From: a virus
Virus record (IMG/VR): IMGVR_UViG_3300023215_000458
Location: 1-21,014 of that record
Length of the DNA stretch: 21,014 nucleotides
Direction: 5' to 3' (one strand)
Position numbers and translations under genes: made by a program. Shown here in pieces: positions 2,685 to 18,657 of the stretch (within the stretch, counting starts at the first letter, position 1; each line of letters starts with the position of its first letter). The notes beneath the pieces are model-generated. The model was not told where the DNA came from and made no database searches. It saw only the letters and a list, made by a program, of their open reading frames with translations.

Positions 2685-2726
2685 TCCACCAACACCGTTT
2701 GTCCGTATGTTGGTAAAGAAGGTGGA
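2685..2726 (+). promoter_or_regulatory. Possible leader structure masking the chaperone ribosome-binding site
   Basis: TCCACC (2685-2690) is the exact complement of GGTGGA (2721-2726), which contains the ribosome-binding site of the chaperone gene starting at 2731. A competing 7-bp stem, ACCAACA (2688-2694) with TGTTGGT (2708-2714), would leave that site free. Two mutually exclusive pairings in a 50-base gap could set the translation rate of the chaperone. This is seen by eye, with no folding calculation. Confidence 0.3.
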
Positions 2727-2730
2727 GAAT

Positions 2731-3117
2731 ATGTTAAATGAAGAAAAAAAATTAGTTAGTGATAAGAGTTTGCTGTTTGCGGCAACTGAGGCCAAAATAC
2801 ACTATCTCAAAATAAGTGAGAAAAGTGACGAGCATTTGAAAATATGGATTAAAGAACCCACTTGGTTGCAAGTTGAGCAAGCGATGGCTTCTGTAATGAA
2901 GATTAATGCAAAAACACAAGAAATGGATATTGATTTGAATAATCTCTATCATTATATGATTGATAATTTTATAGAAAAGACTGAACCTAATTTATCTAAA
3001 GTTGATTTAATTAGATTAAGTCCTTATCTTGGTTCTCAATTAAAAGATATATTACCCAATCCTCTTCAAGAGTTATCAGGGGATGATACAAAAAACGGAG
3101 AATTAGAGAAGCAATAA
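2731..3117 (+). CDS. Tail assembly chaperone, short form (gpG-like)
   Basis: This encodes 128 residues. I chose the ATG at 2731 because AAGGTGG lies 6 bases upstream; an in-frame ATG at 2707 has no such site. The protein is helical and contains EPTWLQVEQAM at about residues 42-52, a pattern seen in tail assembly chaperones, and it ends with an acidic, low-complexity linker. It lies between the tail tube and tape-measure genes, where tailed phages keep the G/G-T chaperone pair (known from phage lambda and many others). The chaperone coats the tape measure and recruits tube subunits, and it is not part of the mature tail. A slippery heptamer near the 3' end lets a fraction of ribosomes make the longer form described separately. 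Confidence 0.8.
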   Translation: MLNEEKKLVSDKSLLFAATEAKIHYLKISEKSDEHLKIWIKEPTWLQVEQAMASVMKINAKTQEMDIDLNNLYHYMIDNFIEKTEPNLSKVDLIRLSPYLGSQLKDILPNPLQELSGDDTKNGELEKQ

Positions 3118-3308
3118 GGGGTCAAAAGGCTGACCCCCAAATTATTTCTCTAATTACTGTTTATTCGCTATCTAAGGCATTGGCGATAAGCCCATTGGAA
3201 ATTTATAAAATGCCCGCAACACTAGTTAGAGATTTATTAAGTGTTCATGGAGAGGTCGAAAACTACAAAGCCGAGATGATGGATAGAGAAATGAAGAAGA
3301 ATAGGTGA
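2731..3308 (+). CDS. Tail assembly chaperone, frameshifted fusion (gpGT-like)
   Basis: This is the -1 frameshift product: zero frame to 3096, then frame 3 from 3096 to TGA at 3306-3308, 192 residues in all. The extra part is 70 residues, beginning RRIREAIRGQKADPQ after the slip and including SLSKALAISPLEIYKMPATL. It is helical and resembles the T-domain that joins tail tube and tape measure. The frame-3 extension has no start codon or ribosome-binding site of its own near its beginning and is open back only to 3087, just upstream of the heptamer. This is the layout expected for a frameshift-dependent domain. Its stop codon lies within the AGGTGA ribosome-binding site of the tape measure. The fusion is inferred from sequence; the efficiency of slippage is unknown. 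Confidence 0.8.
3090..3096 (+). promoter_or_regulatory. Slippery heptamer A AAA AAC for -1 ribosomal frameshifting
   Basis: Read in the zero frame of the chaperone gene the codons are ACA AAA AAC, so the heptamer is A AAA AAC, a canonical X XXY YYZ site. A -1 slip leads exactly into the open frame that carries the T-like domain. The in-frame stop of the short form follows 18 bases later (3115-3117). This type of signal is a known hallmark of tail assembly chaperone genes. Confidence 0.85.
3118..3137 (+). promoter_or_regulatory. Hairpin after the chaperone short-form stop, candidate frameshift stimulator
   Basis: GGGGTCA (3118-3124) and TGACCCC (3131-3137) form a perfect 7-bp stem, four or five of its pairs G-C, with a 6-base loop AAAGGC. 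It starts immediately after the zero-frame TAA and 21 bases beyond the slippery heptamer. No T-run follows, so it is not a typical intrinsic terminator. In the -1 frame it is coding. The spacing is longer than the usual 5-9 bases for a frameshift stimulator, so a role as stimulator is only possible. Confidence 0.5.
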
Positions 3309-3312
3309 GAGT

Positions 3313-5154
3313 ATGTCGGGAACTGTTGATGAAACTAGAAAATCTCTTACTGATTTAAGTCGAATATTAGAAGTAGTTGATAAGCAAACTATTGGGTTTG
3401 CTAGAAATATTGCAAATGCCGGTCAGGAAAGTAAAAAATGGACTTTTCTTGCAAGGATTCTTTCCGGTAGCGGCTTATGGAAATTACAGGCACGACTTAG
3501 AGCAGTAGCGCAAGCATTTGATTTCTATTTTAAAGCACAAGAAAATGCTATGAAACTTCAGGCTGAAAATCTTGAGGGTCTTGCTCAGTTGCAAGAAGCA
3601 CAAGAAGGCATTGCGGAAAATCTTGGGGTATTAACCGCCCTTGAAAATAGCCATAACAAAGCATTAACTGGGACACAACAAAAGAATGAGGCAATAACAG
3701 GTCAATTTAAATTGTTAAAATCTAGCATGAAACGGGCAAGAGAAGAACTGGGTCTTTCAACAGATGAGGCTATATTAAATAAAAAAGCAACTGAATCATT
3801 GAAAGGAAGTTATGTAAGTTTACAAGAAAAATTAACAAAATTGGCTAACCAAAGAGTTAGGGAAATGCAAAAAGTATTATCAAAAGAAGAAAAGTTAGAA
3901 CTTCAAGAGGCATTAAAGAAAACTAAAAGAGCAATTAAAGACATTGAAGATAATAAAAATATGGTTAAAAGAGCAGAAAAAGACTTAGCAAAACTGAAAA
4001 AAGGGGGCAAATCGCCGTGGAAAATCGCTGAGAAACAAGAAAAAATAAAAGAACTAAAAGAACAAAGAAATTTAATAAAACTGCAAGGTGTAAAAGCCAA
4101 AACTGGACCACTTAAAATGCAAATGGCCCTGCAAAAAAAATTACTTAGGGGGCCATTTACCAAAATATTACTTGGCGCAATGAAATCACTGAAAATGATG
4201 ACTTTAGTTCCATTATTTATGAAGTTGAAGAAAATGGGTATTAAAAAAGTGTTAGGCTCAGTTTGGAAAATAGTGAAAATGGCTATTGGGTTTTCTCTTT
4301 ACTTTATTCTGTTCATAGTAGGGGCATTTTTAATCTTTGCAATAATTAAAAAGATATTTTCTAAAGGAGAAATGATGGCTACGGTTATGGAAACTTTATC
4401 GGGAATATTTGAAGGGATGAAAATGACGCTTTCTGGATTTGTAGATATATTTAATGCCTTTTTCGGAGAAGGAACATTTGGTGAAAAATTAAAGACTTTA
4501 ATGAGTGGCTTTGGAAAAATATTTGGTGGATTAGGAACTATATTATGGTCGGTTGGTTTGGGAATACTTAAATTCGGATTTAAATTTGTTGTTGGTTTTT
4601 GGAGCCTAATATTTAAAGGAATTATATTAATATTCTCCAATTTTACTAAAATGGAATTTTGGAGAGATAAAATAATTAAACCTATAAAAGACTGGGTGAA
4701 CGATTCTGTTATACCGTGGGCCAAAAAATATTTCTCGGATAAAGCCGAGCAAATCAAGCAATTATTTCCCGATTTCTGGACTAAATGGTTAAAACCTAAA
4801 TTATATGACCCACTTTATACCATATTAAGCGCAGTTAAAACAAAGGTAGAAGATGCTTATAAGTGGATTAAAAATATGGAATGGTGGGCTTCCGGTGGTG
4901 TTTCTAAAGGTGGATTAGCAATGGTTGGTGAAAGAGGACCAGAATTGGTTAATTTACCCGCAGGTTCTAGAGTAACATCTGCACCACAAACAAAAAGGAT
5001 GTTGGGTGGAATTTCTAATACCATCAATGTTAGTGTTAATGGGAGAGTAGGGGCATCCGATTCCGAATTACGGGATATAGCAAAGAAAATAGGAAGAATG
5101 GTTAGTGCTGAGATTAATAGAAGCACTTCTTCTTCCACTAATTTGAGGTATTGA
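3313..5154 (+). CDS. Tail tape measure protein
   Basis: This encodes 613 residues, from an ATG 4 bases after AGGTGA (3303-3308), which contains the stop of the chaperone fusion. The order of regions is: N-terminal helical part; a long Lys/Glu-rich coiled-coil-like stretch (about 90-265); hydrophobic helices at about 323-349 (IGFSLYFILFIVGAFLIFAI) and 408-444; and a C-terminal tail with ASGGVSKGGLAMVGERGPEL at about 526-545 followed by NLPAGSRV. That Gly-rich VGERGPE motif is typical of tape-measure C-termini. The protein sets tail length and is ejected with the DNA; the hydrophobic segments may insert in the host membrane. At about 1.5 angstrom per residue (a rule from known phages), the tail would be near 90 nm. 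I saw no peptidoglycan hydrolase domain, which would fit a host lacking murein but does not prove it. Confidence 0.9.
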   Translation: MSGTVDETRKSLTDLSRILEVVDKQTIGFARNIANAGQESKKWTFLARILSGSGLWKLQARLRAVAQAFDFYFKAQENAMKLQAENLEGLAQLQEAQEGIAENLGVLTALENSHNKALTGTQQKNEAITGQFKLLKSSMKRAREELGLSTDEAILNKKATESLKGSYVSLQEKLTKLANQRVREMQKVLSKEEKLELQEALKKTKRAIKDIEDNKNMVKRAEKDLAKLKKGGKSPWKIAEKQEKIKELKEQRNLIKLQGVKAKTGPLKMQMALQKKLLRGPFTKILLGAMKSLKMMTLVPLFMKLKKMGIKKVLGSVWKIVKMAIGFSLYFILFIVGAFLIFAIIKKIFSKGEMMATVMETLSGIFEGMKMTLSGFVDIFNAFFGEGTFGEKLKTLMSGFGKIFGGLGTILWSVGLGILKFGFKFVVGFWSLIFKGIILIFSNFTKMEFWRDKIIKPIKDWVNDSVIPWAKKYFSDKAEQIKQLFPDFWTKWLKPKLYDPLYTILSAVKTKVEDAYKWIKNMEWWASGGVSKGGLAMVGERGPELVNLPAGSRVTSAPQTKRMLGGISNTINVSVNGRVGASDSELRDIAKKIGRMVSAEINRSTSSSTNLRY

Positions 5155-5155
5155 A

Positions 5156-5968
5156 ATGGCAACCACATCAAATTTTACCCAAGTTCATCACGTTTGGCTT
5201 GATTTAAGTTCTAGAAGTCCATTTACAGATGATGCAGATACAGCCACAATGAAAACATTTGAAACTAATAGAATAGGATTGAAATGTGATACTGTTGCTA
5301 TTTCCACTGCTAAGAATATCATGGCTTTTCCTACTCCCGCAATAGGTATTGCTACTGGGCATTCTGTTTCATTGGGTTTGGATTTAGGTATGTCTACAAA
5401 AAGTGTTAGTTTAAGTGGTATTATTACTGAACAGTTTATCAGCAAACAATTTAAATCAGGAGATTTACCTAAAAGTAAAACAGATAGCACGTTAGATGCT
5501 TCCCATGCTGATTATACTTATACTGATAATGATGGTAAATATGTTAAAGTATTTATGACCGCACAAGAAGTTTCACAATTAATGCATTCATATGTTGATG
5601 CTTCTTTTATGCAGACTCAACAAAATCTAAACAAATTGATTATTCTTATACCTTCAAGAGTTGGCCCAAATTTCACTTACCATGATAAGGATGAAGCGGG
5701 CAATGTATTAACAACAGGTTCAGCAACCGCTTTAGAAAATTGCCCATTGATTCCTTTTAATTATGGCGTTAGAGATAAAGGGTCTAGTAGTAAATTAGAT
5801 GCTACGAATAGTATTTCTCAAATTAGATTTCCCAAACCAATAGATACTTCAAAAAATATCACTAAGGGTATTTCTGGTTTTGTTCGCTCTTTTGATACTA
5901 CTTTTGTAGGCGGCCAACCATTTGTAGAGTTTAGTTTATCGTTTGAACTCGCACTCTCTAGTTTGTGA
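5156..5968 (+). CDS. Probable distal tail (Dit-like) or tail-tip protein
   Basis: This encodes 270 residues, starting one base after the tape-measure stop with GAGGT at 5145-5149. The product is beta-rich with no signal peptide. Strand-like blocks include GHSVSLGLDLGMSTKSVSLS at about 72-91 and a closing GGQPFVEFSLSFELALSSL. The final strand pattern recalls tube-like or distal-tail folds, in which a beta-barrel forms a hexameric ring under the tail tube. The gene directly after the tape measure is normally the distal tail protein, and that position is the main reason for the call. I do not recognise a specific family, so another baseplate ring component is equally possible. Confidence 0.6.
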   Translation: MATTSNFTQVHHVWLDLSSRSPFTDDADTATMKTFETNRIGLKCDTVAISTAKNIMAFPTPAIGIATGHSVSLGLDLGMSTKSVSLSGIITEQFISKQFKSGDLPKSKTDSTLDASHADYTYTDNDGKYVKVFMTAQEVSQLMHSYVDASFMQTQQNLNKLIILIPSRVGPNFTYHDKDEAGNVLTTGSATALENCPLIPFNYGVRDKGSSSKLDATNSISQIRFPKPIDTSKNITKGISGFVRSFDTTFVGGQPFVEFSLSFELALSSL

Positions 5969-5972
5969 TATT

Positions 5973-8609
5973 ATGTCTAATTATAGGATTTATAGTGGAG
6001 ATAAAAAATCTCTAGTTTTTCCTATATTGGGCGATGGATATGTTCATTTGGATTATAGTAGGCATATACCTAAAGGAACAGATGGATTAGAAGGTAATGA
6101 TGATGATGCCTACGGTCTTTGGGGGCATAAGAGGGCATTTACCATTGAAGCCATTGCTACACCCTATGATGTGAATGGATTTGGATATAGATTAGGAATA
6201 GAATATGGGGCGGATTCAGTTGATGGAACAGGAACACCAGCAATTCACGGCCATTATTCTGCAAGTAATTTAGGAATACCATTTTTAGATAAGTATTATT
6301 CTCCTTCAGGTGGTTCAGGAACTTCAACTAATTCTAGAACTGAGGCTTATTTTTCTCAAATAAAAAATTGTGTTTTAGCAATGAATATTGATAATATTGT
6401 TACTACTTTTAGAATTAATAATATAGAGAATTTAATTGGTGGTAGTATTCTTAGGATAGGTAGAGAACAGATGTTAATTACCTACATTGTAAAAAAAAGA
6501 GGGCAACTTTCAAGTGTGGTTGTAACTAGAGGTCAAAATGGAAGCACTGCTGAATCTCATATCAAAGGAGATATTATTCAATCTGATAATAGACGCAATC
6601 ATAAAATGACTATTTTTCATAATGAAACTTGCCAATTTTATTTAAAAAATATGACTAGAGGAAATATGAATCAACCTGCTGAATATAAATTAGGCTGTAT
6701 TATGAAAGGTAAAGACACTAATGGTAATATTAAAACTGTTACTGTTGAAAGTAATACCCCTGCAATTTCCGCATCTAAAGAATATTTTTCAACACCAGTA
6801 GTTCAACCAATAGGGGGTCAAAGAGTATTTGGAAAGCCTGTATATTTGAATAAAAATGATAGGATTCGTTATCATAAGATTGTAGATAGTGTTAATCATA
6901 CTCTTTATTATGATAGGATATATCCTTCATTTACTAGAATTTCAAGTGGAACAGTGACTTTTTCATCTAGTGCTAATACCATAAATAGAACTGATACCAC
7001 TTGGCCCGCTAGTATGACTTATATTCTAGTGCAAGATTCTGGTAATAATGATGGATATTATAAAGTAACCAGTGGTTCTGGAACAGATACTATAACCGTA
7101 GATAGTTCAGTTTGGTCTAATACAAATACGGGTAGTTTATTTACTCAAGAAACTATTTCAAGTGGAACATTAGGTGTTACTGCTATGGTAGTATATTATG
7201 GGGTTGTTAATGAAGATAACATTCTATTTTCAACAGGGGGTTCAACACTCGTTGATGTTGAAAATCAAATGTGGATGGGTAAAAATCTTTATAGCCAATT
7301 TAATGATTCAAGGTTTTTTTCTGCATCTTTACAACAAACAGAACCTAAATATTTAGGGTTTATTACTGATATTACGGTTGATTCAAGTGGTAATGCAACT
7401 GATGAAGTTAGATTGGGTGTTTGTAAATTAATAAAGCCTATTCGTTCATTTGCTGAAACTAAATTATATGTTGATGATTCTTCTAATGTTGAAATTGGAG
7501 ATATGTTATTAATTGGGGGAATAGAACAAGTTACTGTTACTTCTATTAATGGTAATACTTTAACAGTAACAAGGGCAACTGGTGAATTTCTTGTTACTGT
7601 TAAAATAGTAAATACTAATGCAACAGTTACACATGATGCTAATGCTAATATTATAGCAGGATTATCTGTTAGTGGAATAGGAATACCTACTGATACTACT
7701 ATTGCAAGTATTACAGATTCCACTCATTTTGAGTTAAGTGCCGTTGCTACTGCTAGTGGAACAAATGTAACATTAACATTTTTGGGGGAAGTTACTACTA
7801 GTCTTAATGCGTTTGACTTAACAGGTGGTAGTATTGGTGATGAAGAGTATATTACCGATTCTAGAGAAGAAGATGATTTTTCAAGAACTATTTCTAAAAA
7901 TGTAATAGGTAAAGGTGAATGGTTTAATGGATTTAAATTAGTTGATGGTAGTAATAATTCAGTTGTTAATTCCGAATTATATGGTTTTCATGTTTTAACA
8001 GATACTTGGATGGAAAGTGATTATGTTTTAAGGCCGTTTCATTTAGCAATGGCCTATGATGATATAGGACAAAGAATTACTTTATTTCTTGATGGTGCGG
8101 AATTAGATGCAAGTATATTTAGTGAAACTGAATTTAGAATACATTCTGTTATTACTGCTGGTAGTGCAACTGCAACCGTTAATACAATAGGTAAACATGG
8201 ATTGTTAAGTGGGGATATTTCTAACGGAATTTGGATTAGTATTAAAGATACTAGCGTTGCTAATTTAAATGGGGTATGGAAAGTTGTTAGTATAGTTGAT
8301 GATTATAATTTCACAATTAATGTTGTTAATAGTCTAAGTTCGGCTACTCATACTGATGCAACTGTAAAAGATGTAACTATTAGAACTGTAATGACTTTTG
8401 ATAATTTTGAATTTGATGCAACAGATTGTTATTTGGGGTCTAATGGTAATGAAGATTTAGGAACAAGAAGGGCATCACAATTTATGGGAGAGTTACATGA
8501 ATTTTGTATAAGTAAAGAATATAAGGAAACATTTCAATCAATTGATACTTTGTTACCTAATTACAGAAACACATTACTTTATTTTAGATTTGAAGAGGCG
8601 AACCTATGA
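5973..8609 (+). CDS. Lectin-like (LamG/ConA fold) tail protein with inserted beta modules
   Basis: This encodes 878 residues. I prefer the ATG at 5973, 5 bases after the upstream stop; the frame is open further upstream, but only inside the previous gene. Segments resembling a LamG/concanavalin-like fold are scattered: GLWGHKRAFTIEAIATPYD (48-66), FHLAMAYDDIGQRITLFLDG (689-708), and a C-terminal CYLGSNGNEDLG with GELHEFCIS (819 to about 848). Between them lie small beta modules. One is a VTRG-type module (about 139-200), another is IGDMLLIGGIEQVTV (about 505-519), another is HDAN-type (about 549-605), and an HGLLSGD module with LNGVWKVV (about 720-806) falls inside the lectin-like C-terminal half. 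A carbohydrate-binding tail-tip or baseplate role is likely by inference. The gene overlaps the next by ATGA (8606-8609). Confidence 0.7.
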   Translation: MSNYRIYSGDKKSLVFPILGDGYVHLDYSRHIPKGTDGLEGNDDDAYGLWGHKRAFTIEAIATPYDVNGFGYRLGIEYGADSVDGTGTPAIHGHYSASNLGIPFLDKYYSPSGGSGTSTNSRTEAYFSQIKNCVLAMNIDNIVTTFRINNIENLIGGSILRIGREQMLITYIVKKRGQLSSVVVTRGQNGSTAESHIKGDIIQSDNRRNHKMTIFHNETCQFYLKNMTRGNMNQPAEYKLGCIMKGKDTNGNIKTVTVESNTPAISASKEYFSTPVVQPIGGQRVFGKPVYLNKNDRIRYHKIVDSVNHTLYYDRIYPSFTRISSGTVTFSSSANTINRTDTTWPASMTYILVQDSGNNDGYYKVTSGSGTDTITVDSSVWSNTNTGSLFTQETISSGTLGVTAMVVYYGVVNEDNILFSTGGSTLVDVENQMWMGKNLYSQFNDSRFFSASLQQTEPKYLGFITDITVDSSGNATDEVRLGVCKLIKPIRSFAETKLYVDDSSNVEIGDMLLIGGIEQVTVTSINGNTLTVTRATGEFLVTVKIVNTNATVTHDANANIIAGLSVSGIGIPTDTTIASITDSTHFELSAVATASGTNVTLTFLGEVTTSLNAFDLTGGSIGDEEYITDSREEDDFSRTISKNVIGKGEWFNGFKLVDGSNNSVVNSELYGFHVLTDTWMESDYVLRPFHLAMAYDDIGQRITLFLDGAELDASIFSETEFRIHSVITAGSATATVNTIGKHGLLSGDISNGIWISIKDTSVANLNGVWKVVSIVDDYNFTINVVNSLSSATHTDATVKDVTIRTVMTFDNFEFDATDCYLGSNGNEDLGTRRASQFMGELHEFCISKEYKETFQSIDTLLPNYRNTLLYFRFEEANL
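7617..7785 (+). repeat. HDAN-type beta module, copy A
   Basis: About 57 residues reading THDANANIIAGLSVSG, then a STHFELSA strand. Two blocks are identical at DNA level to copy B in the giant hub gene: 25 bases at 7653-7677 (matching 9085-9109) and 26 bases at 7710-7735 (matching 9142-9167). Elsewhere the two copies differ by synonymous and amino-acid changes. Confidence 0.85.
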
Positions 8610-8713
8610 CCCGTTGTATATTCCTACAACAATGGTTGGATGTTCAGTCGAAGAAGATTGATACCCATGAAAAGGCAACAGGTATTGATGTTATTACAGG
8701 GGTGAAGAAATGA
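8606..8713 (+). CDS. Tiny protein translationally coupled on both sides
   Basis: This encodes 35 residues (start MTRCIFLQQWLDVQSKK, end GIDVITGVKK). The ATG at 8606 overlaps the upstream TGA in an ATGA, and the stop TGA (8711-8713) overlaps the next ATG (8710-8712) in another ATGA. AAGAGGCG at 8593-8600 serves as its ribosome-binding site, and its own 3' end carries GGGGTGA (8699-8705) for the giant hub gene. I do not recognise the product. It may be a real short tail protein, or a leader whose translation delivers ribosomes to the giant gene. The double overlap makes it more credible than a chance frame. Confidence 0.6.
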   Translation: MTRCIFLQQWLDVQSKKIDTHEKATGIDVITGVKK

Positions 8714-11700
8714 CTAGAATAACCAGTAATATCACCAATGTTTATGCAATGAGTAAAGGATTTACTGAGGTTGCCGCTTCAACAACCGCAATTAATACAA
8801 CCGCCACTAGTGTTAGTAATTATAGTGGTAATTTTCTTGAGAAGGCCACATATAACACTCCCTTGAATCCATTATTAGTTAGAGGGGCAGTTACACCAGA
8901 TATGGCTGATTTCACTACCCCTGCGAATGTAGAGGCTATCAATAGTTATGAAATACATAAAGCGGATAATGTAACTTTAACTAATATAAAAACAGGAATA
9001 TATAATTCAAATGGTGGATTTACAGATGCTACTTGTGATTATAATAACGACCCTACCATTACTCACGATGCAAATGCAAGTATAATAGCAGGATTATCTG
9101 TTAGTGGAACTGGTATTCCAGCAGGTGCTACTATATCATCAATTACAGATTCCACTCATTTTGAGTTGTCTGCATCTACAACAGGTGGTAGTGTGACTAA
9201 CGGCACATTAACATTTACTATTCAAACTTATAGTGCTGTAAATAGAATATATCCTAATGAGGCTGTTGTAGATTCTCATTTAAAAAACAAACAGACAACT
9301 AAAGGAAATGTATTACAAATGTATGATTATGGCGATGATAGCGGTCAAAGGATGATACATGATAGAACATTACTTAATGAAGTGTTAGACGCAACAGAAA
9401 CCGTTGTTACAGTAGGTAGCGCAACTGATATTATTGTTGATGATGTGATAATAGTTGATAACGAAGAAATGTTAGTTACTGTGGTTTCTAGTAACGATTT
9501 AACTGTAATAAGGGGATATAATAATACAACTGCAACAACTCATCTCGATAATACTCAAGTTTTTGAAAGGCAAAAAATAGATTCTTTATGGGTATTGGTT
9601 TATTCCGATGATGCTAATTCTCATCATTTTGCTAAAGTTACGGAAGTATTAGAATTTGATGTATTCGGAGATGCTATTGAATTTTCCCCTTCTATTGGGG
9701 TTGATATTCCTAAAGATACTAAATTTGCTATTTTCTCTTCCGAAGTTACTGCCTTTCCTAAAACAGATTCGGATAATCAAACCTTAGTTGCTTGTGGATA
9801 TGGGTTATTAGGTGGAACTTCTACTACTTTTACAGATGCTACTTGTGATTATAATGATGGAACAACAGTAACCCATGATATTAATTCAAATATAGTAACA
9901 GGATTACAAGTTACTGGCACTAGTATTCCAGCAAATGCATATATTGTTAGTATTACAAACACAACTAGTTTTATTTTAAATGAAGCAACTACTGGTGGTT
10001 CTCTTAGTAATCAAACCTTAACATTTTCAACTAAACAAGATAACCGTCATTATCTTAACACCCACGTTTCAAGACCATTCTTTTATTTTTTAAATGGAAA
10101 GGATAGATTAGAACCTGCAACTAGATATATTTTACGAACTTCTTCTTTTGATGGAACTAATCACACTTACACATATAGCACGTTTCTTACTGAACCGGCA
10201 TATAGTGGGGATATTATTGATTATGGCCCATACACTATGGAAGCAAGCCTTGTAGATATGTTGTATAAAGCAGACAATCCTGCCGCTATGGATTTTTTAG
10301 AATATACTAGTGATTATTTACAATTAACTAATGGTTCTCCAGATACAATTTTACTTGATGGGGGGGGTAGTAATGACGCTAGTTTTGATAATTCTATTAC
10401 AGATTTAGATGGAACAGAAGGAACTAATTGGGGTTTACTAGGAATATTAAGAGATTCAAGATTTACTCTTTCTGGAGCGCAAGCGGGAATATATTGTATA
10501 GATAATGCTACAGATTCTACTGCTACAACTTTAACTATGGATGCCGCAGATTTTGGTGGTGTTTCTACTTCGGATTCTTTAATAATTAGATTTTTAGCCC
10601 ATGCTGTTGATTTAGACCATAATGAAATGTATGGTGCTTTTAGTAGTGCTGATGCTACTGATACAATAGGGGGCGATACAGTTGGTTATTTCGCTATGGT
10701 TAATGCGTTTAGAATGGGTAATAGACCAGATACGGAAGATGCTACTACATATTACGGCTATAAAGAAGGACATACTAGATATATGCATTATACAGACTCT
10801 CCTTTAACTAATAATTTAGCCCCTAATATGTTGGAAATGATTGATTATGAATCAGTAACAACCACAGGTGGATATGTCGATATGGTTTTTGCCGACACAC
10901 AAAAAATACTCGCTAAGAAAATTAAACAAGGAGATGTTTTACAGATTCATCAAGTAGTAAGTAGTGAAGAAGTCGGATTGAATAGACTAGCCAAATTATC
11001 CGGCACATTTGAATACGATACCACATTAGGAACTAATCAAATATTAGTAAAAAATTTAGGAAATAATGAGGATATAAGATTCTTATTAGAGTCTTCTATT
11101 CCTAATTCTCAAACAGATACTTCAAGTCAATTCGACCCACTATTTGATGCTTTTACAATAGATGTAAGTGGAACTTTATATCATTTTGTTCCAGATAGAA
11201 TTAGTAATGTAAGTAGTAATACTCAAACAATTACTGTTAAATCTTGGAGAAAAGATACTGATACAGAATTTAAAACTACAACTCTTCAAGCAAATAGTGT
11301 TCCTAATTTTACTGGTAATGCTTATAGAAAAAGATACTCTTTCTTAGCAGATAATATAATGACTTCGGAGATACCCATTGATTGTAAAATTAACGGATAT
11401 AGTTTAGATTATAATGGGGCTTCGGCAGTTCCTACAAATAGAAATGTTACCTCTTTTGAGAATTTATTAGATGTATTAGGAACATCTCTTAAAGTTGGAA
11501 ATACAATATTAGAAGGGGAAAATGAAAGTCGAATTAATGATATTAATTTGGTATTTAAAGGCGGTCAAATGACGGGTCATAGAATAAAAATATCTTATGG
11601 AGATGCCTTCAATTCATTTATTAAATTGCAGACTCATTTAAAAGACGAGCGTTTTTTAGACTTTTATAATAAAACAGACTATAAACCTTTTTCTGATAGG

Positions 11701-14700
11701 TTATCGGGAATATCTCTATATAATTACCCAATTAATTCAGGCTTAGATGGGGCAGGTAGCCTTTACAGATATAATCTAAATTCTCCGTGGAGCGTAAGCA
11801 ATACTCATATTAGAGGAATCAATTCTTATATTGATTATTTCCAAGGAACTTTTGATATTGAAAATAAAGTATTTTCTGGATTTGTTGAAAGTGTTGAACA
11901 AGTAATTGAAGATGGAATGTTTAAATTGAGAATTAGAGGTAGAAATAATATTTCTAAATTGTTAGGTCCAATTGTAAATAAGGATTATAAATTCACGGAA
12001 GATATTATTTATTCAACAGTTGGGCCTATTGAGAATATGGCCCATCTAGGGAAAATGGATTATTTTACAGGTATTAGTGAAGGTGCGGCAGGTAGTGATG
12101 GTGGAAATGGTGTTTATGAAGTTGGTAGCACTAGTTTTCAAGTTGATACATATGTTTCCTCTTTATTGTTTGCAATTGCTGTAAATAAAGGAGATTTATT
12201 ATTTTCTAAAGAAGGCACTTTACTAGGAAGAATACACGCTATAACAGCAGGGTCCAATACTTATAGAATTACGGTAGAAGAAGGAATACCTGTAAGAATG
12301 AAAAACGGAGAATCAATTTTTATTACTAAACAAACACCCTCAACAGATATTACCCCCGATGTATTTGAACATCAATCTGGATTAGAAATGCATTATTTAG
12401 CAAAAAGAAGTAATACTGTTAGTTTTGCTAAAGCCATGTCCTCTAATCCATTTATTTCAATTAGAGTAAATTCATTATCTGGAACTAGTAATAAAGGAAT
12501 TATTTTTACTGGTGGTAATTCTTTAACTGATACCACAGATGGCGCACCTGCATTAGAAGGTGGAACTTTAGTAGGAACATCTTCTAGTTCTCATAAATTA
12601 GCGAAGGGATATTCCATTCATTCACCAAGTAATATTTATTTTGATTTGCCTTTTTATTGTAATCTTGCTGATGAAATTACAGATAAACACGTTATTGATT
12701 TTACTAATCTTAATACTGTTAATTCATTAACAGAATATGATATTTTAAATTTATCTTCCAAAGAAGGAGAAACTATTATTGAAATTGCTCCAATTTGCCC
12801 TGCTATTTTAGCAAGAGTAGATAGTAATGAATTAGATGGTAGAGATAAATATTTGAGATTAGCGGTTGAAACTGCAACAGATGTAATTTATTCTGTTGGA
12901 TATAATGGGCCTATTCATTTTACGGCGGCGGCTTCTGATAATGCGTATCAAAATTTAATGGTTGGAAATATAATTTTCAAATCCGATGGAATAGAAATAG
13001 GTAAAATAATAGATATTTCTAGAGCATATACAGAAACTTCTGCCAATGATGATATTGTAATAACATTAGATAAACCATTAACAAGTGCTTTAAATAGTGG
13101 GGAAGATTTTTACAAATATCAATATCATAATGATGATTCTAGTTATACTAGATACCATTATAATTCGGGGGGTAATATTAAATTTAAAGCCTCAAATAAT
13201 GCGACTTTTCTTGGAGATACTTATATGAAAATGAATGTTATTTATAGTGCTGATACTACTGATATAGCGTTTTTCCAAAAATTAAAAACAGGTATGAGAA
13301 TAGAAATTCAAGGGGCGACTGAGGGTGCAAATAATGGTGTTTTCACTATTGGGAAATATTATGTTAGTGGAAGTGATTATGGGTGGTATGTTTTTCCTAG
13401 AAAAATGGCTGGAACTAATTATGCGTCGTCGGGACTTAATAATTTTAAAAATGATACTACGGGCGACCAAACTTGCACAATTAAAATATTAACTGACCAT
13501 TTTACTCACGGGATGTATTTCTTAAATACTCAAGGGTTAAGTCAAGGTGGTGTTTTAACTTTAACAAATCCTCTTCTTTCTAGTCCTAATTTTGTAGATA
13601 ATATATGTAAACCTATCCGGTGGGCTGGTAGTCTTTTCCATTATATTACTGATGAGTCTTTAGATATTAAAAGTGGTGGTGTTGCTAGATATAATCCAAA
13701 CGCTTCTACTAATACTATCTATTCAGATTTTATAGATAGATATGGTAATACTAAGTGGAGATATTTTGGTCTTCAAAAAGGACAATCATTATCTTATATT
13801 AATAGAAGAAGAAAAGACGGTCAAATAAAAAATACCTATGCTCAAGAAAAAGGAAAAGTAAATGGTTATGCTACTGCATATCGAATCGCTGATGCAATAC
13901 ATGGTTCTGCTGAAATGTTTCTATATCCATATGGTTATCATAATAATGATTTTTCTTGGGGGGTTAGTTTCTATGATGCACTTCATACTGATTATGTCGA
14001 TACTTATAATTTTCTTAGTGGGTATCAAAGTGGGGTTTCTGCTAGTGCAGACAGTGATAACATTCGCTTCCATCCCTATTTCTTAGAATATCTTTCTCCA
14101 GAATCTAGAGATTTTAGACCAGTAATGGGAAGTAACTTTGCTGATTTAGATAAACATGGAACTTGGCTAACTTCACCTAATACTGCAACTTCTTCTAATT
14201 ATAATACTCTAAATGTTCCCCGTTATATGCCTCGTTTACATGATAATTTTAGAGGTGGCGATTGGCAAGAAGATATGGAAGCACCGGAAAACCCCGATGA
14301 TGATAGTATTGCAACATCATCAGCGGCGTATAGCGATGTAAAGAAAGTTACCAATATTAATTTTAATTTAGATAATACTGGTTCTCGTCCTACTTTGGAA
14401 TTTGATTATAATACAGACCATGCTACTAGTGATAATACAAACAGAACAGCGATTGCAGAATCACTGTATAATAATTGGGTTAAGATTGGTGGAACTACTG
14501 ATAGAAATAATAACAGGGCTTTTTATCTTACAAATGATATAGCAAATTTCCCCCCAATAAGAAGAATAAAATTTTCTTCTCCTGATTCTTATGGGGCTAC
14601 GTTACCACCTTATACTGATTTCATAGACGTTAATGGTTCGGCTACTAATACAACTGGAACTAGTCTTAGCAACCACACAACAGTAGGAGCAGAATCAATT

Positions 14701-17700
14701 ACAACCCTTTATCCACCATGGATTGGTCCTAAAGTAGATGGAATCACAAGAGCAAAAGACCATTGGGAATTGCCCGACCCTAAAACAATGAGATGGTTTA
14801 TTTTTTCACCAAGCGATATGTTCCCCGATAGTATGGCTAGACAGAATCATATAGGATATTCCGAAACAATTGACTCTACTGCTATTGCAAGAAAATTCAC
14901 AGATTATAATTTATTGCTTAAAGGGGAAAGTAGTAAGAGCCAAAGTGGGGTTCTACATGAGTATTATGAAGGTAGTTTAGATGATGAATATGAAACAGAT
15001 GATAATTATGAAACATTACCTATTACTGAGGCATCAATAACCCCTTCACAAATAAAGAGATTTGGATTAATGAGATTAATTGATTGCACTTATGATTGGC
15101 ATTTTAATTTAATTGACCCTGAAAGATTACCAGATAATATGGAAAAACTTACCACCCCTAATTTTCAATATACTCGTTATCAAGCATTAAGAAAAACCAT
15201 GCTTTATGCTGGAGATAGAGATAGTAGTTATGATGATAGTTATTCTACTATGGATACAACAGATGAAGATGGAACAGCCATAGACCCAACAGGACAGGTA
15301 TTAGTAGGAGATAATATATTTACTTATCATGGAAAATATTTAGGAACAGTTACAGCATTAGATAGTAGTAATAAAAAAATAACAGTTGTTCAAAGAATAG
15401 AACTTCCTCAAATAAGAAACAGTGGAGAATCTTATCAATATCGAGGACCACTTTATGTTTGCGGCGATGCAACTTTAGCAACTTCAAGTCAAGATAGAGA
15501 AGATTCTTATTATCAATTTCACACTAAAGGGCGAGGTGGATTAAATACTTTTACTGAGGTGGATTCTTCAGTTCCAACAAATATGTTACAAATGATGATT
15601 AATGCTTCTTACCATAAGCAACATATCACTCAAACAGATTATCAACAAGTTCCCTATGGTGCAATAACTGGGGCTAGTGGAGCAACTGGAACAGCAATAA
15701 TATATGATTCCACAAATTTAGACCAAAACATATCGGCGTGTAAATTTTTATCACATTTTAATGAAAACTTTTCTGCATTTCATAATCATGGGGGAATAGA
15801 CAGTTTGTTATTAACACCCACTGTTTCTTTGCCGCCAGCCTTTCAAACATTTTATTCAAAACATACTGTTGCTAGCGAACCCGAAAAAACAATTAATGTT
15901 ATGCAATCCAAAGAATATCTTGTTAATAAAACAGAAGGTTCAGCCACTAATAATGGACTTGCAACTGAATATTCTCATGTTTCTAATATTTTACAATGGA
16001 TTCAAGATGGTGGAAACCCATATTGGAATTGTGATGTTGTTAGTTTAGCGAGATATAATATAGAAAATAGTAATGGTATTCAAGTTCCTATTGGTGGTAA
16101 AATTAAAATTAGAGGTGCATACATACTAGGAGATGATTCTGGAACGGCTAGGTCTATTACCACAGATTTTCCTTATTCAAAACCGGCTAGAACTGGAACC
16201 CCTACTGGGGTTGATTTAGCAAAACAAAAATATGGTGATGGTTTTGGTGGATTAACCTCAGCCTATGGTAATGTAAATAGTGGAGAATATTCATTTTTGG
16301 CTACTCATGGGTATTCCACTTGGGGGTTTGCTACTTATAATGCAGATTCTATAACCGCTGATACTACTTATTTTGATAGTAATTATGCTAGTTATGTGGC
16401 TGATGGAATTTTTGGGGCATTTATACCTAATTTATATTTAAGAAGGTTGGAAAGCACAGAAATTACAGATGGAACAGTGAGTGAAACTTCGGAAGGAACT
16501 ATAATTTTTGATTCTATAAATGGTAATACTAAAATGGGAATAATTAGAATTGAAATAGATGCTACTAGTTCTACTAATGATAATCCATTTTTAAATTTTG
16601 TAGATTTAACAGGTATGTATTTAGTTGCTAATGTGGGGTATATGCATGGGCATCCAACTGCTTCTGTTGATTATCGCCCTTTTAGAAATAATGGTGTTTA
16701 TGATGAAATAAGTTACAGTTCAGAATCAGTAATTTTTAATCCTTCTTTATTAAATATATATGAAAATGATGGACTTTTTAATACCTCTATGAATGATGCT
16801 ATGGTAGACCCAAAACACATATTGTATGTGCATGAACATAGAAGAAATGTTACAGGTAAAGTAGTGGCTCATGAATTATTAATAGATAATATACCTATTA
16901 ATAGTGCAGGGATTGACCCATTTTTTGCTGATAATTATAGAATTATGCGACCAGCCGAGCATTGTTTTTGGAAAGATAGCCCCACTGAAATTAAAATTAA
17001 TACCTTATCTTCCCAAACTACAAAAATGCCTCAAGAAAATAATATGTATAAATCTATTCCATCTTTAACTAGAGTAAATCAAGCAGGGGAATTTAGTGCT
17101 GGAAGCACTAACGATATCAACTACATTACTGGAACTGTTGTAAAAGGTAAAATAGGAAAAAATGAAGCAGTTATGTCTATGTATGTAGCAATTGATATGG
17201 ATTCTCGCCATGCTCAACATAAAACCCTTACTGGAACAGTTTCAATTACTAAGGGAACATATGTAGTTGCGGGAAGTTCAACATTATTTACCACTGAATT
17301 ACAAGTTGGAGATATGATTAAACTATCTAATCAAAATTGCTATATCAAAGAAATAGCCAGCAATACAGCCTTAACTCTCGCTAGTAAATTTGTCTGCACT
17401 ACGTTATCAGGGGCAACTGCTACACTATGGAATAATAAATTCACAGTATTGCGAGATTATATCCATTTATTCAATCCTACTGGAAATAGAAATACTTTTA
17501 AAAGCGGTTCAGCATATACTATGTTATTAACAGATGGGATTTCAAAACAGAAAATGTCTATGTCGGTTGAAGCAGATTATTGGGATAGTAGAGCATTATG
17601 TAAATTATCTCTTGGAACTAAATTTGAAAATGATATGTTAGGAATTGTTTCATTTGGAGAAGTATTTATTTTAAAATCTGCTACTCCTTCTAAAATTAAC

Positions 17701-18657
17701 AATGCTGTTTCTGCAAGAATTGGTTCAACAGTAATTATTGGTAGTGAAGTTGAAGATGTGATTAATGATTTATTATCTTCGGAAGACATTGAATATAATA
17801 TTAACGATGATAGGGAATACCCATATTATATTTCTCCAAATTATCAAGGTATAGATATATTCAGTGCTAGTAATTTTGCGGCTAGATATAAAAATAAAGA
17901 AATAAGAATAGATGAAACAGGTATTGCTTTATCTAAACAATCTAGAGAATTAGATTTAAGACCAATTGAATTAAGTTATGAAGATACAAACTTAAAAATC
18001 ATTACAGTTACTAGAAACACCACAACATTTGATTTATACAATGAAGTTATTGTTTATGGTAATGGTATAAAATCCATTAAGAGAAACCGTAAGAGTATAG
18101 ACAAGTTCGGGAAGAAAACCCTAGAGGACACAAATATGGGGCTTATTTCACAAGATGATGTGGATTCTAGAGCGTTATCACTGCTTAAGGCACATTCCGA
18201 AGGGGATGATAGGTTCACCGTTAAAATGTCTAAAACAGGCATAGAATTTGTAAAGGCAGGAGATATTATAACTCTCGATTTCCCAACCGAAGGTATTCCG
18301 AAGGGGCAATATAAGGTGTATGAAATTCGTCGCCAATTGGCCGGACTTATTGAATTGGAAATAGGCACATACCGAAAAGATTTGGCGGATAGATTTGCAG
18401 AATTAATGATGCAGAATAGGTCTAACACGGCTTCTATTCGGGGAGATAAATTCAAAGAGCGAGCAGTGACTTTAGATTTCTTTGATAGTTTCAAAATTAA
18501 AGAATTAAGATTGTTGATAAACCGTGTGGGATTAGCAGAAACAGATGCATTCACATTGGGCTTCCAAACAGATTCGGATAGATTATTAGGGTTCGGAGCA
18601 ACGATGGGCCCATTGGAAACAGTAACAGAAACCTTGATTGATGAGGACTTTTTATGA
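8710..18657 (+). CDS. Giant tail hub/baseplate protein
   Basis: This is an uninterrupted frame of 3315 residues, nearly half of the window, starting 4 bases after GGGGTGA. The N-terminal 450 residues hold HDAN modules (108-172, 378-440) and a VTRG-type module (about 224-275). Residues about 920-1093 resemble the first part of phage hub proteins (T4 gp27/Mu gp44/Tal group), with FQGTFDIENKVFSGFVESVE at 1044-1063 and RIRGRNNISKLLGPIVN following. The C-terminal part, about 2990-3240, has DDVDSRALSLLKAHSEGDDR (3149-3168) and VKAGDIITLDFPTEG (3181-3195), like the later hub beta domains. Between them lie about 1900 residues including three VGxxIF-type units (near 1158, 1417, 2197), a GMRIEIQGATEGANNGVFTI unit (near 1528) and GTVSITKGTYVVAGSS (about 2841). 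It likely plugs the tube at the tail tip and contacts the host. The hub assignment is inference from pattern. Confidence 0.75.
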   Translation: MTRITSNITNVYAMSKGFTEVAASTTAINTTATSVSNYSGNFLEKATYNTPLNPLLVRGAVTPDMADFTTPANVEAINSYEIHKADNVTLTNIKTGIYNSNGGFTDATCDYNNDPTITHDANASIIAGLSVSGTGIPAGATISSITDSTHFELSASTTGGSVTNGTLTFTIQTYSAVNRIYPNEAVVDSHLKNKQTTKGNVLQMYDYGDDSGQRMIHDRTLLNEVLDATETVVTVGSATDIIVDDVIIVDNEEMLVTVVSSNDLTVIRGYNNTTATTHLDNTQVFERQKIDSLWVLVYSDDANSHHFAKVTEVLEFDVFGDAIEFSPSIGVDIPKDTKFAIFSSEVTAFPKTDSDNQTLVACGYGLLGGTSTTFTDATCDYNDGTTVTHDINSNIVTGLQVTGTSIPANAYIVSITNTTSFILNEATTGGSLSNQTLTFSTKQDNRHYLNTHVSRPFFYFLNGKDRLEPATRYILRTSSFDGTNHTYTYSTFLTEPAYSGDIIDYGPYTMEASLVDMLYKADNPAAMDFLEYTSDYLQLTNGSPDTILLDGGGSNDASFDNSITDLDGTEGTNWGLLGILRDSRFTLSGAQAGIYCIDNATDSTATTLTMDAADFGGVSTSDSLIIRFLAHAVDLDHNEMYGAFSSADATDTIGGDTVGYFAMVNAFRMGNRPDTEDATTYYGYKEGHTRYMHYTDSPLTNNLAPNMLEMIDYESVTTTGGYVDMVFADTQKILAKKIKQGDVLQIHQVVSSEEVGLNRLAKLSGTFEYDTTLGTNQILVKNLGNNEDIRFLLESSIPNSQTDTSSQFDPLFDAFTIDVSGTLYHFVPDRISNVSSNTQTITVKSWRKDTDTEFKTTTLQANSVPNFTGNAYRKRYSFLADNIMTSEIPIDCKINGYSLDYNGASAVPTNRNVTSFENLLDVLGTSLKVGNTILEGENESRINDINLVFKGGQMTGHRIKISYGDAFNSFIKLQTHLKDERFLDFYNKTDYKPFSDRLSGISLYNYPINSGLDGAGSLYRYNLNSPWSVSNTHIRGINSYIDYFQGTFDIENKVFSGFVESVEQVIEDGMFKLRIRGRNNISKLLGPIVNKDYKFTEDIIYSTVGPIENMAHLGKMDYFTGISEGAAGSDGGNGVYEVGSTSFQVDTYVSSLLFAIAVNKGDLLFSKEGTLLGRIHAITAGSNTYRITVEEGIPVRMKNGESIFITKQTPSTDITPDVFEHQSGLEMHYLAKRSNTVSFAKAMSSNPFISIRVNSLSGTSNKGIIFTGGNSLTDTTDGAPALEGGTLVGTSSSSHKLAKGYSIHSPSNIYFDLPFYCNLADEITDKHVIDFTNLNTVNSLTEYDILNLSSKEGETIIEIAPICPAILARVDSNELDGRDKYLRLAVETATDVIYSVGYNGPIHFTAAASDNAYQNLMVGNIIFKSDGIEIGKIIDISRAYTETSANDDIVITLDKPLTSALNSGEDFYKYQYHNDDSSYTRYHYNSGGNIKFKASNNATFLGDTYMKMNVIYSADTTDIAFFQKLKTGMRIEIQGATEGANNGVFTIGKYYVSGSDYGWYVFPRKMAGTNYASSGLNNFKNDTTGDQTCTIKILTDHFTHGMYFLNTQGLSQGGVLTLTNPLLSSPNFVDNICKPIRWAGSLFHYITDESLDIKSGGVARYNPNASTNTIYSDFIDRYGNTKWRYFGLQKGQSLSYINRRRKDGQIKNTYAQEKGKVNGYATAYRIADAIHGSAEMFLYPYGYHNNDFSWGVSFYDALHTDYVDTYNFLSGYQSGVSASADSDNIRFHPYFLEYLSPESRDFRPVMGSNFADLDKHGTWLTSPNTATSSNYNTLNVPRYMPRLHDNFRGGDWQEDMEAPENPDDDSIATSSAAYSDVKKVTNINFNLDNTGSRPTLEFDYNTDHATSDNTNRTAIAESLYNNWVKIGGTTDRNNNRAFYLTNDIANFPPIRRIKFSSPDSYGATLPPYTDFIDVNGSATNTTGTSLSNHTTVGAESITTLYPPWIGPKVDGITRAKDHWELPDPKTMRWFIFSPSDMFPDSMARQNHIGYSETIDSTAIARKFTDYNLLLKGESSKSQSGVLHEYYEGSLDDEYETDDNYETLPITEASITPSQIKRFGLMRLIDCTYDWHFNLIDPERLPDNMEKLTTPNFQYTRYQALRKTMLYAGDRDSSYDDSYSTMDTTDEDGTAIDPTGQVLVGDNIFTYHGKYLGTVTALDSSNKKITVVQRIELPQIRNSGESYQYRGPLYVCGDATLATSSQDREDSYYQFHTKGRGGLNTFTEVDSSVPTNMLQMMINASYHKQHITQTDYQQVPYGAITGASGATGTAIIYDSTNLDQNISACKFLSHFNENFSAFHNHGGIDSLLLTPTVSLPPAFQTFYSKHTVASEPEKTINVMQSKEYLVNKTEGSATNNGLATEYSHVSNILQWIQDGGNPYWNCDVVSLARYNIENSNGIQVPIGGKIKIRGAYILGDDSGTARSITTDFPYSKPARTGTPTGVDLAKQKYGDGFGGLTSAYGNVNSGEYSFLATHGYSTWGFATYNADSITADTTYFDSNYASYVADGIFGAFIPNLYLRRLESTEITDGTVSETSEGTIIFDSINGNTKMGIIRIEIDATSSTNDNPFLNFVDLTGMYLVANVGYMHGHPTASVDYRPFRNNGVYDEISYSSESVIFNPSLLNIYENDGLFNTSMNDAMVDPKHILYVHEHRRNVTGKVVAHELLIDNIPINSAGIDPFFADNYRIMRPAEHCFWKDSPTEIKINTLSSQTTKMPQENNMYKSIPSLTRVNQAGEFSAGSTNDINYITGTVVKGKIGKNEAVMSMYVAIDMDSRHAQHKTLTGTVSITKGTYVVAGSSTLFTTELQVGDMIKLSNQNCYIKEIASNTALTLASKFVCTTLSGATATLWNNKFTVLRDYIHLFNPTGNRNTFKSGSAYTMLLTDGISKQKMSMSVEADYWDSRALCKLSLGTKFENDMLGIVSFGEVFILKSATPSKINNAVSARIGSTVIIGSEVEDVINDLLSSEDIEYNINDDREYPYYISPNYQGIDIFSASNFAARYKNKEIRIDETGIALSKQSRELDLRPIELSYEDTNLKIITVTRNTTTFDLYNEVIVYGNGIKSIKRNRKSIDKFGKKTLEDTNMGLISQDDVDSRALSLLKAHSEGDDRFTVKMSKTGIEFVKAGDIITLDFPTEGIPKGQYKVYEIRRQLAGLIELEIGTYRKDLADRFAELMMQNRSNTASIRGDKFKERAVTLDFFDSFKIKELRLLINRVGLAETDAFTLGFQTDSDRLLGFGATMGPLETVTETLIDEDFL
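9019..9225 (+). repeat. HDAN-type beta module, copy B
   Basis: In the giant hub gene, residues about 104-172. It starts with FTDATCDYN, whose 27 coding bases (9019-9045) are identical to 9829-9855 in copy C. The THDANASIIAGLSVSG core and STHFELSA strand match copy A in the upstream gene, with blocks of 25 and 26 identical bases. Confidence 0.85.
9829..10030 (+). repeat. HDAN-type beta module, copy C
   Basis: In the giant hub gene, residues about 374-440: FTDATCDYN, then THDINSNIVTGLQVTG, then TGGSLSNQTLTFST. The first 27 bases are identical to copy B, while the rest has diverged more in both bases and residues. Confidence 0.8.

Follow-up and report, generated by a model that had tools for sequence, protein, structure and literature searches.

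We examined a giant open reading frame (ORF) in a marine viral DNA record, IMGVR_UViG_3300023215_000458 of IMG/VR, the whole of which (21,014 bp) is referred to here as the window. The ORF occupies positions 8710–18657 of the + strand, on which the other hub parts and the tail tube, tape measure, 270-aa and 888-aa genes described below also lie, and encodes a baseplate-hub protein of 3,315 aa. GGGGTGAAGAA is located upstream of its ATG. The translation contains no internal stop, and the other two frames across the same interval contain 239 and 512 stops. Full-length orthologues of 3,257–3,557 aa occur in about ten IMG/VR contigs, with 49–79% identity between types, and a sister clade of short forms (about 2,156–2,200 aa; contigs L019, L041 and the partial L039) shares about 25% identity. 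An unnamed relative in public databases, A0A516LT38, is 60% identical. The gene is under purifying selection, as the ratio of non-synonymous to synonymous substitution rates (dN/dS) between sibling viruses is 0.11–0.14 over its entire length. Because of these orthologues and the low dN/dS, the ORF is not a product of chance, in keeping with an original prediction made from the letters of the DNA alone, which described a 3,315-residue hub protein and took the large gene's staying in frame as an argument for strong selection. One contig that is 99.9% identical to the window (L018) carries a 10-nt deletion near aa 1890 which breaks the hub frame and would suit an explanation of the long ORF as an assembly or frame artefact; this explanation is extremely unlikely, having already been refuted by the unbroken ORFs in about ten other contigs and by the sibling dN/dS. 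The deletion in L018 is probably a sequencing or assembly fault and possibly a defective variant.

The C-terminal ~270 residues of the protein (aa 2991–3260; 17680–18489) are a conserved hub core. Relatives of the last 415 residues were found in 19 viral contigs, with further ones from later scans, and all hub relatives reside in marine viral contigs. Aligned members of this C-segment matched the PHROGs family phrog_21793 (E values of 4.5e-6, and 2.9e-7 in a genome scan) and also the tail-protein family phrog_1887. A full-length member of phrog_21793 is HVTV-1 gp133, and the identical protein in HVTV-2 is annotated as baseplate hub. In the reverse direction, a hidden Markov model (HMM) from the C part of HVTV-type hubs matched 13 magrovirus proteins (E values from 5.8e-10 to 0.029), every time in the C-segment. 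Alignment of the C-segment with the HVTV-type hub by hhalign gave probabilities of 91–94% and P values as low as 1.9e-8; when the protein was divided into 54 tiles, matches were obtained solely from those reaching the C-segment. The match to phrog_21793 covers only positions 345–478, or the C part from about position 259 by hhalign; homology over the whole 482 positions was not found.

Structure prediction gave a consistent result. The AlphaFold model of aa 2660–3315 had a predicted local distance difference test score (pLDDT) of 49 overall and of about 80 in the core, and a Foldseek search of the PDB with this model returned 25 matches at E<1e-3, essentially all of them hubs (phage Chi, JBD30, T5 pb3, monocin, lambda J, Mu gp44, 80alpha and VgrG). 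In BFVD, the best named match was the HHTV-2 hub homologue (7.3e-10). A search of PDB sequences with the C-segment profile produced chance matches only, and neither tblastn of the hub core against named phages nor a scan of genome contigs yielded a match. The chain contains a distal hub core resembling hdIII/hdIV, one of the features by which membership among the hubs was judged. Both the designation as a hub protein and the hub-like C-terminal part predicted at about residues 2990–3240 were thereby confirmed, the former by homology of the C-terminal segment to an ordinary 476-aa hub and the latter by the HVTV-type profile and Foldseek matches.

A second conserved stretch, the hub-like first segment (aa 1026–1125; 11785–12084), is separated from the core by 1,866 aa in the window protein, in agreement with the predicted distance of about 1,870 aa. 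Long forms have spacings of up to 2,169 aa and short forms of 1,231–1,271 aa; in HVTV-1, about 160 residues lie between the N-terminal part and the hub core. The intervening middle region (aa 1126–2990; 12085–17679) is beta-rich, belongs to no enzyme family by Pfam search and is most variable at aa 2241–2690. Two blocks within it, aa 1230–1400 (12397–12909) and aa 2001–2160 (14710–15189), are 64% and 78% identical within the clade, match no family and are the best places to seek a function. The only PHROGs match of the window protein is a small module at aa 2840–2902 (17227–17415; phrog_1980, E value 1.3e-8) that is common to bacterial tail-fibre and minor-tail proteins; by tblastn it was linked to pelagiphages and N15 gp25. 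About 900 residues, which had gone unmentioned in the original prediction, precede the first segment. This N-terminal extension (aa 1–930; 8710–11499) has conserved cores at aa 176–345 and 444–760 and gave no Pfam or PHROGs match.

The hub protein diversifies as small, interchangeable cassettes are gained and lost. In the orthologue alignment, blocks of ~60–75 aa are present or absent between viruses with clean boundaries, so that the predicted insertion of a single block was too simple: cassettes are gained and lost at many sites, in the middle region as well as in the N-terminal extension. An HMM of the type-A cassette (core ...GLSVSGTGIPAGATISSITDSTHFELS...) detected 25 copies, of which 24 are spread over about 13 scaffold sites of hub proteins and the remaining one lies in an 888-aa protein encoded next to the hub gene. 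The window protein carries type-A cassettes at aa 106–169 (9025–9216), which L009 and five of the ten long orthologues lack, and at aa 372–443 (9823–10038), where the cassette occurs in the window virus only and all orthologues have clean flanks. Between the sibling viruses L004 and L005 (95% nucleotide identity) there is an in-frame difference of 225 nt, and L013 and L014 (93%) have two sites with a 225-nt difference each. Type-A copies from different sites share up to 82% nucleotide identity. A single recent jump of a cassette between L013 and L014 was considered and is not favoured, because the copies are 82% identical in a background of 93%. The cassette of the 888-aa neighbour (aa 551–613) is 70% identical at the DNA level to the first hub cassette, and therefore cassettes are common to adjoining tail genes.

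Type A was not assigned to any known family: its best match in Pfam had an E value of 0.043, to unrelated families and without a recognised Ig or FNIII profile, the best in the PDB was not significant (0.11), and a match to a cyanophage tail fibre was at chance level. The type-A alignment was too variable to serve as a collection query. A second repeat, type B, has three fixed sites and two variable ones; HMM searches placed it in the window protein at aa 1143–1204 (12136–12321), 1408–1466 (12931–13107) and 2192–2230 (15283–15399). A Foldseek lead for the first copy (E value about 0.03) suggests that type B may form a small barrel like that of Gar1/NAF1.

The longest contig with a hub relative, G003 (94,290 bp), has homologues of the window's tail genes and also encodes PolB, an RFC-like clamp loader, a terminase and a prohead protease; a match to a TFIIB zinc ribbon was weak. 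GroEL and PolB were present in all five relatives tested and HMG-CoA lyase in the three longest. Thus, the long relatives show the combination by which magroviruses are recognised, namely PolB, GroEL and HMG-CoA lyase in a genome of 90–110 kb; the window sequence is a fragment of 21 kb. Their gene content agrees with the published description of the Aoguangviridae, order Magrovirales, for which non-contractile tails are predicted (PMC10768690). By orthology and synteny, the window virus is assigned as a putative magrovirus; according to the literature, its hosts would be Poseidoniales archaea. No description of a giant magrovirus hub protein was found in the literature searched. At 57752–58859 of G003 (17752–18859 of L023), two adjacent ORFs have an identical start and the second contains undetermined bases, which may reflect a local duplication or an assembly gap.

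The hub gene follows genes for the tail tube, an assembly chaperone and the tape measure. The tail tube protein (538 aa; 919–2535) matched PF18906 with an E value of 6.6e-6, just under the cut-off, and the minor-tail family phrog_290, and the tape measure protein (613 aa; 3313–5154) matched phrog_19914 (7.8e-7). Between them, at 2707–3313, lies the tail assembly chaperone followed by a gap of ~200 nt before the tape measure gene; at this place a −1 frameshift is annotated in HVTV-2. The next gene encodes a 270-aa tail protein (5156–5968) that was identified by synteny, has no family match and, judging from its position, may be a tube–hub connector. It is followed by the gene for the 888-aa neighbour (5943–8609).

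On the basis of these data, the giant gene probably encodes the tail-terminating baseplate hub of a magrovirus, with an extreme T5-type hub insertion as a modular host-contact apparatus. By analogy, the C-terminal core would sit as a trimer beneath the last tube or connector ring, and residues ~1026–1125 would form the first tube-like hub domain in the same chain. The region between the two would be a greatly enlarged counterpart of the hdII-insertion region of the T5 and RcGTA hubs. The middle region and the N-terminal ~900 residues would extend around and beneath the tip, attach to the archaeal surface, seal the tube and trigger its opening, and cassette turnover would adapt this host-facing surface and thereby tune host contact. 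The gradient in segment spacing from HVTV-1 through the short to the long clade supports this arrangement. Several observations weigh against it. The model of the C-segment has low overall confidence and low TM-scores. No significant similarity of the first segment to the HVTV N-terminal domain was detected by hhalign, using the 54 tiles and chosen segments, or by HMMs in both directions, and in the tests made neither sequence nor fold comparison connected the segment with a hub or tube domain. Finally, host contact by the middle and N-terminal parts is something that we infer.

The role of the first segment decides between this reading and a split hub, in which the C-segment is the core, hub domain I is supplied by a separate upstream protein and residues 1–2990 are a long N-terminal, fibre-like extension without any insertion. 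The hubs of lambda (gpL) and RcGTA (gp13) are split in that way (PMC10721106), two uncharacterised tail genes lie directly upstream of the hub gene, and the formal tests linked no hub or tube domain to the first segment. Likewise, the hub families YQBQ (PF24032) and GpP-like_1st (PF21683) did not match the relatives. The AlphaFold model of aa 850–1420 was unusable (pLDDT 36); its Foldseek matches were to Gar1/NAF1-like barrels and were not used as hub evidence because they most likely stem from a type-B repeat. On the other hand, all hub parts are in a single chain in HVTV-1, the closest known relative. Neither upstream neighbour has a detectable hub domain, and hub tiles gave nothing significant against the tail-tube and 270-aa neighbour families. 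The block at aa 1026–1125 is retained in both clades, being among the more conserved stretches of the protein (66% identical within the clade, 30% when compared with the short clade), and contains VFSGFVESVEQ...FKLRIRGRNN...FTEDII, a stretch that looks by eye like the hairpin in a first hub domain. When both sibling pairs were analysed by slices cut by aligned-codon index, so that boundaries are approximate, dN/dS was 0.058–0.061 for the slice holding the first segment, 0.035–0.041 for that of the C-core and 0.15–0.16 for that of the middle. The value of the first-segment slice, near that of the C-core and below that of the middle, speaks for a single chain, in which residues ~1026–1125 probably supply the first tube-like domain. 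We regard the split hub as rather unlikely. Thus, of the hub-like first segment originally predicted at about residues 920–1093, a conserved block in a fitting position was confirmed but its identity as a hub domain was not.

A different function of the middle region would be that of one or more diverged enzymes, for example glycan- or S-layer-degrading, so that the hub would be fused to cell-surface hydrolases. The conserved blocks at aa 1230–1400, 1601–1760 and 2001–2160, which belong to no family, would leave room for such domains, but in Pfam the window protein matched nothing at E≤1, and three orthologues nothing at E≤0.1 except for one weak tudor-like match. No enzyme domain was recognised in these four proteins, in line with the prediction of a middle part without obvious enzyme motifs, and we consider this explanation improbable.

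Magroviruses, which infect uncultured archaea, occur throughout the surface oceans. The giant hub is an obvious candidate for the part of their tail that contacts the host. It ties the hubs of marine archaeal viruses to a haloarchaeal and bacterial hub family and is enlarged about sevenfold. New here is the variable presence of cassettes at about 13 sites, with near-identical viruses differing by exactly 225 nt in frame. These sites provide a ready comparative system, in which close genomes either have or lack a domain at one defined position of the same protein. As a tentative and rather doubtful extension, a tail hub might have been turned into a host-recognition organ: a single very large chain with up to ~2,170 residues splitting its hub, and with loops that take up interchangeable ~225-nt cassettes at about 13 sites, would let the tip change rapidly and combinatorially through one gene.

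Among known systems, the hubs of the haloarchaeal tailed viruses HVTV-1 (gp133) and HHTV-2 (gp51), members of phrog_21793, share with the magrovirus protein a homologous C-terminal core, the genomic place after tube, chaperone and tape measure, and extra residues that separate the N-terminal part from the core. In contrast, the HVTV-1 hub has 476 aa instead of 3,315, about 160 aa where the magrovirus has about 1,870, and neither cassettes nor the ~900-aa N-terminal extension, and homology of the N-terminal domains is undetectable. In function, the nearest analogy is the hub gp44 of Haloferax virus HFTV1, an archaeal tailed-virus hub with globular domains that project towards the host S-layer (PMC12494034); in this comparison, the HVTV-type profile gave no sequence match among PDB chains. 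Phage tail proteins are known to gain small domains in frame and to share them, a domain mosaicism that includes Ig-like domains (PMC10684548). The type-A cassette differs from such mobile domains in having no significant Pfam or PDB family and in occupying about 13 sites in one hub protein. In T5, the linker between two tube domains became hdII and a tube-closing insertion, and the hub of the gene transfer agent (GTA) is similar (PMC10038345). T5 pb3 and the RcGTA hub (megatron) resemble the magrovirus protein in a Foldseek match of the core and probably in a large insertion at hdII, whereas the insertion of pb3 is far smaller (chain of 949 aa) and its likeness to the magrovirus insertion would be one of position. 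A tail hub with an insertion is thus known already; by analogy, the magrovirus protein, in which it is unusually large and modular, may be an extreme case of the T5/GTA insertion design.
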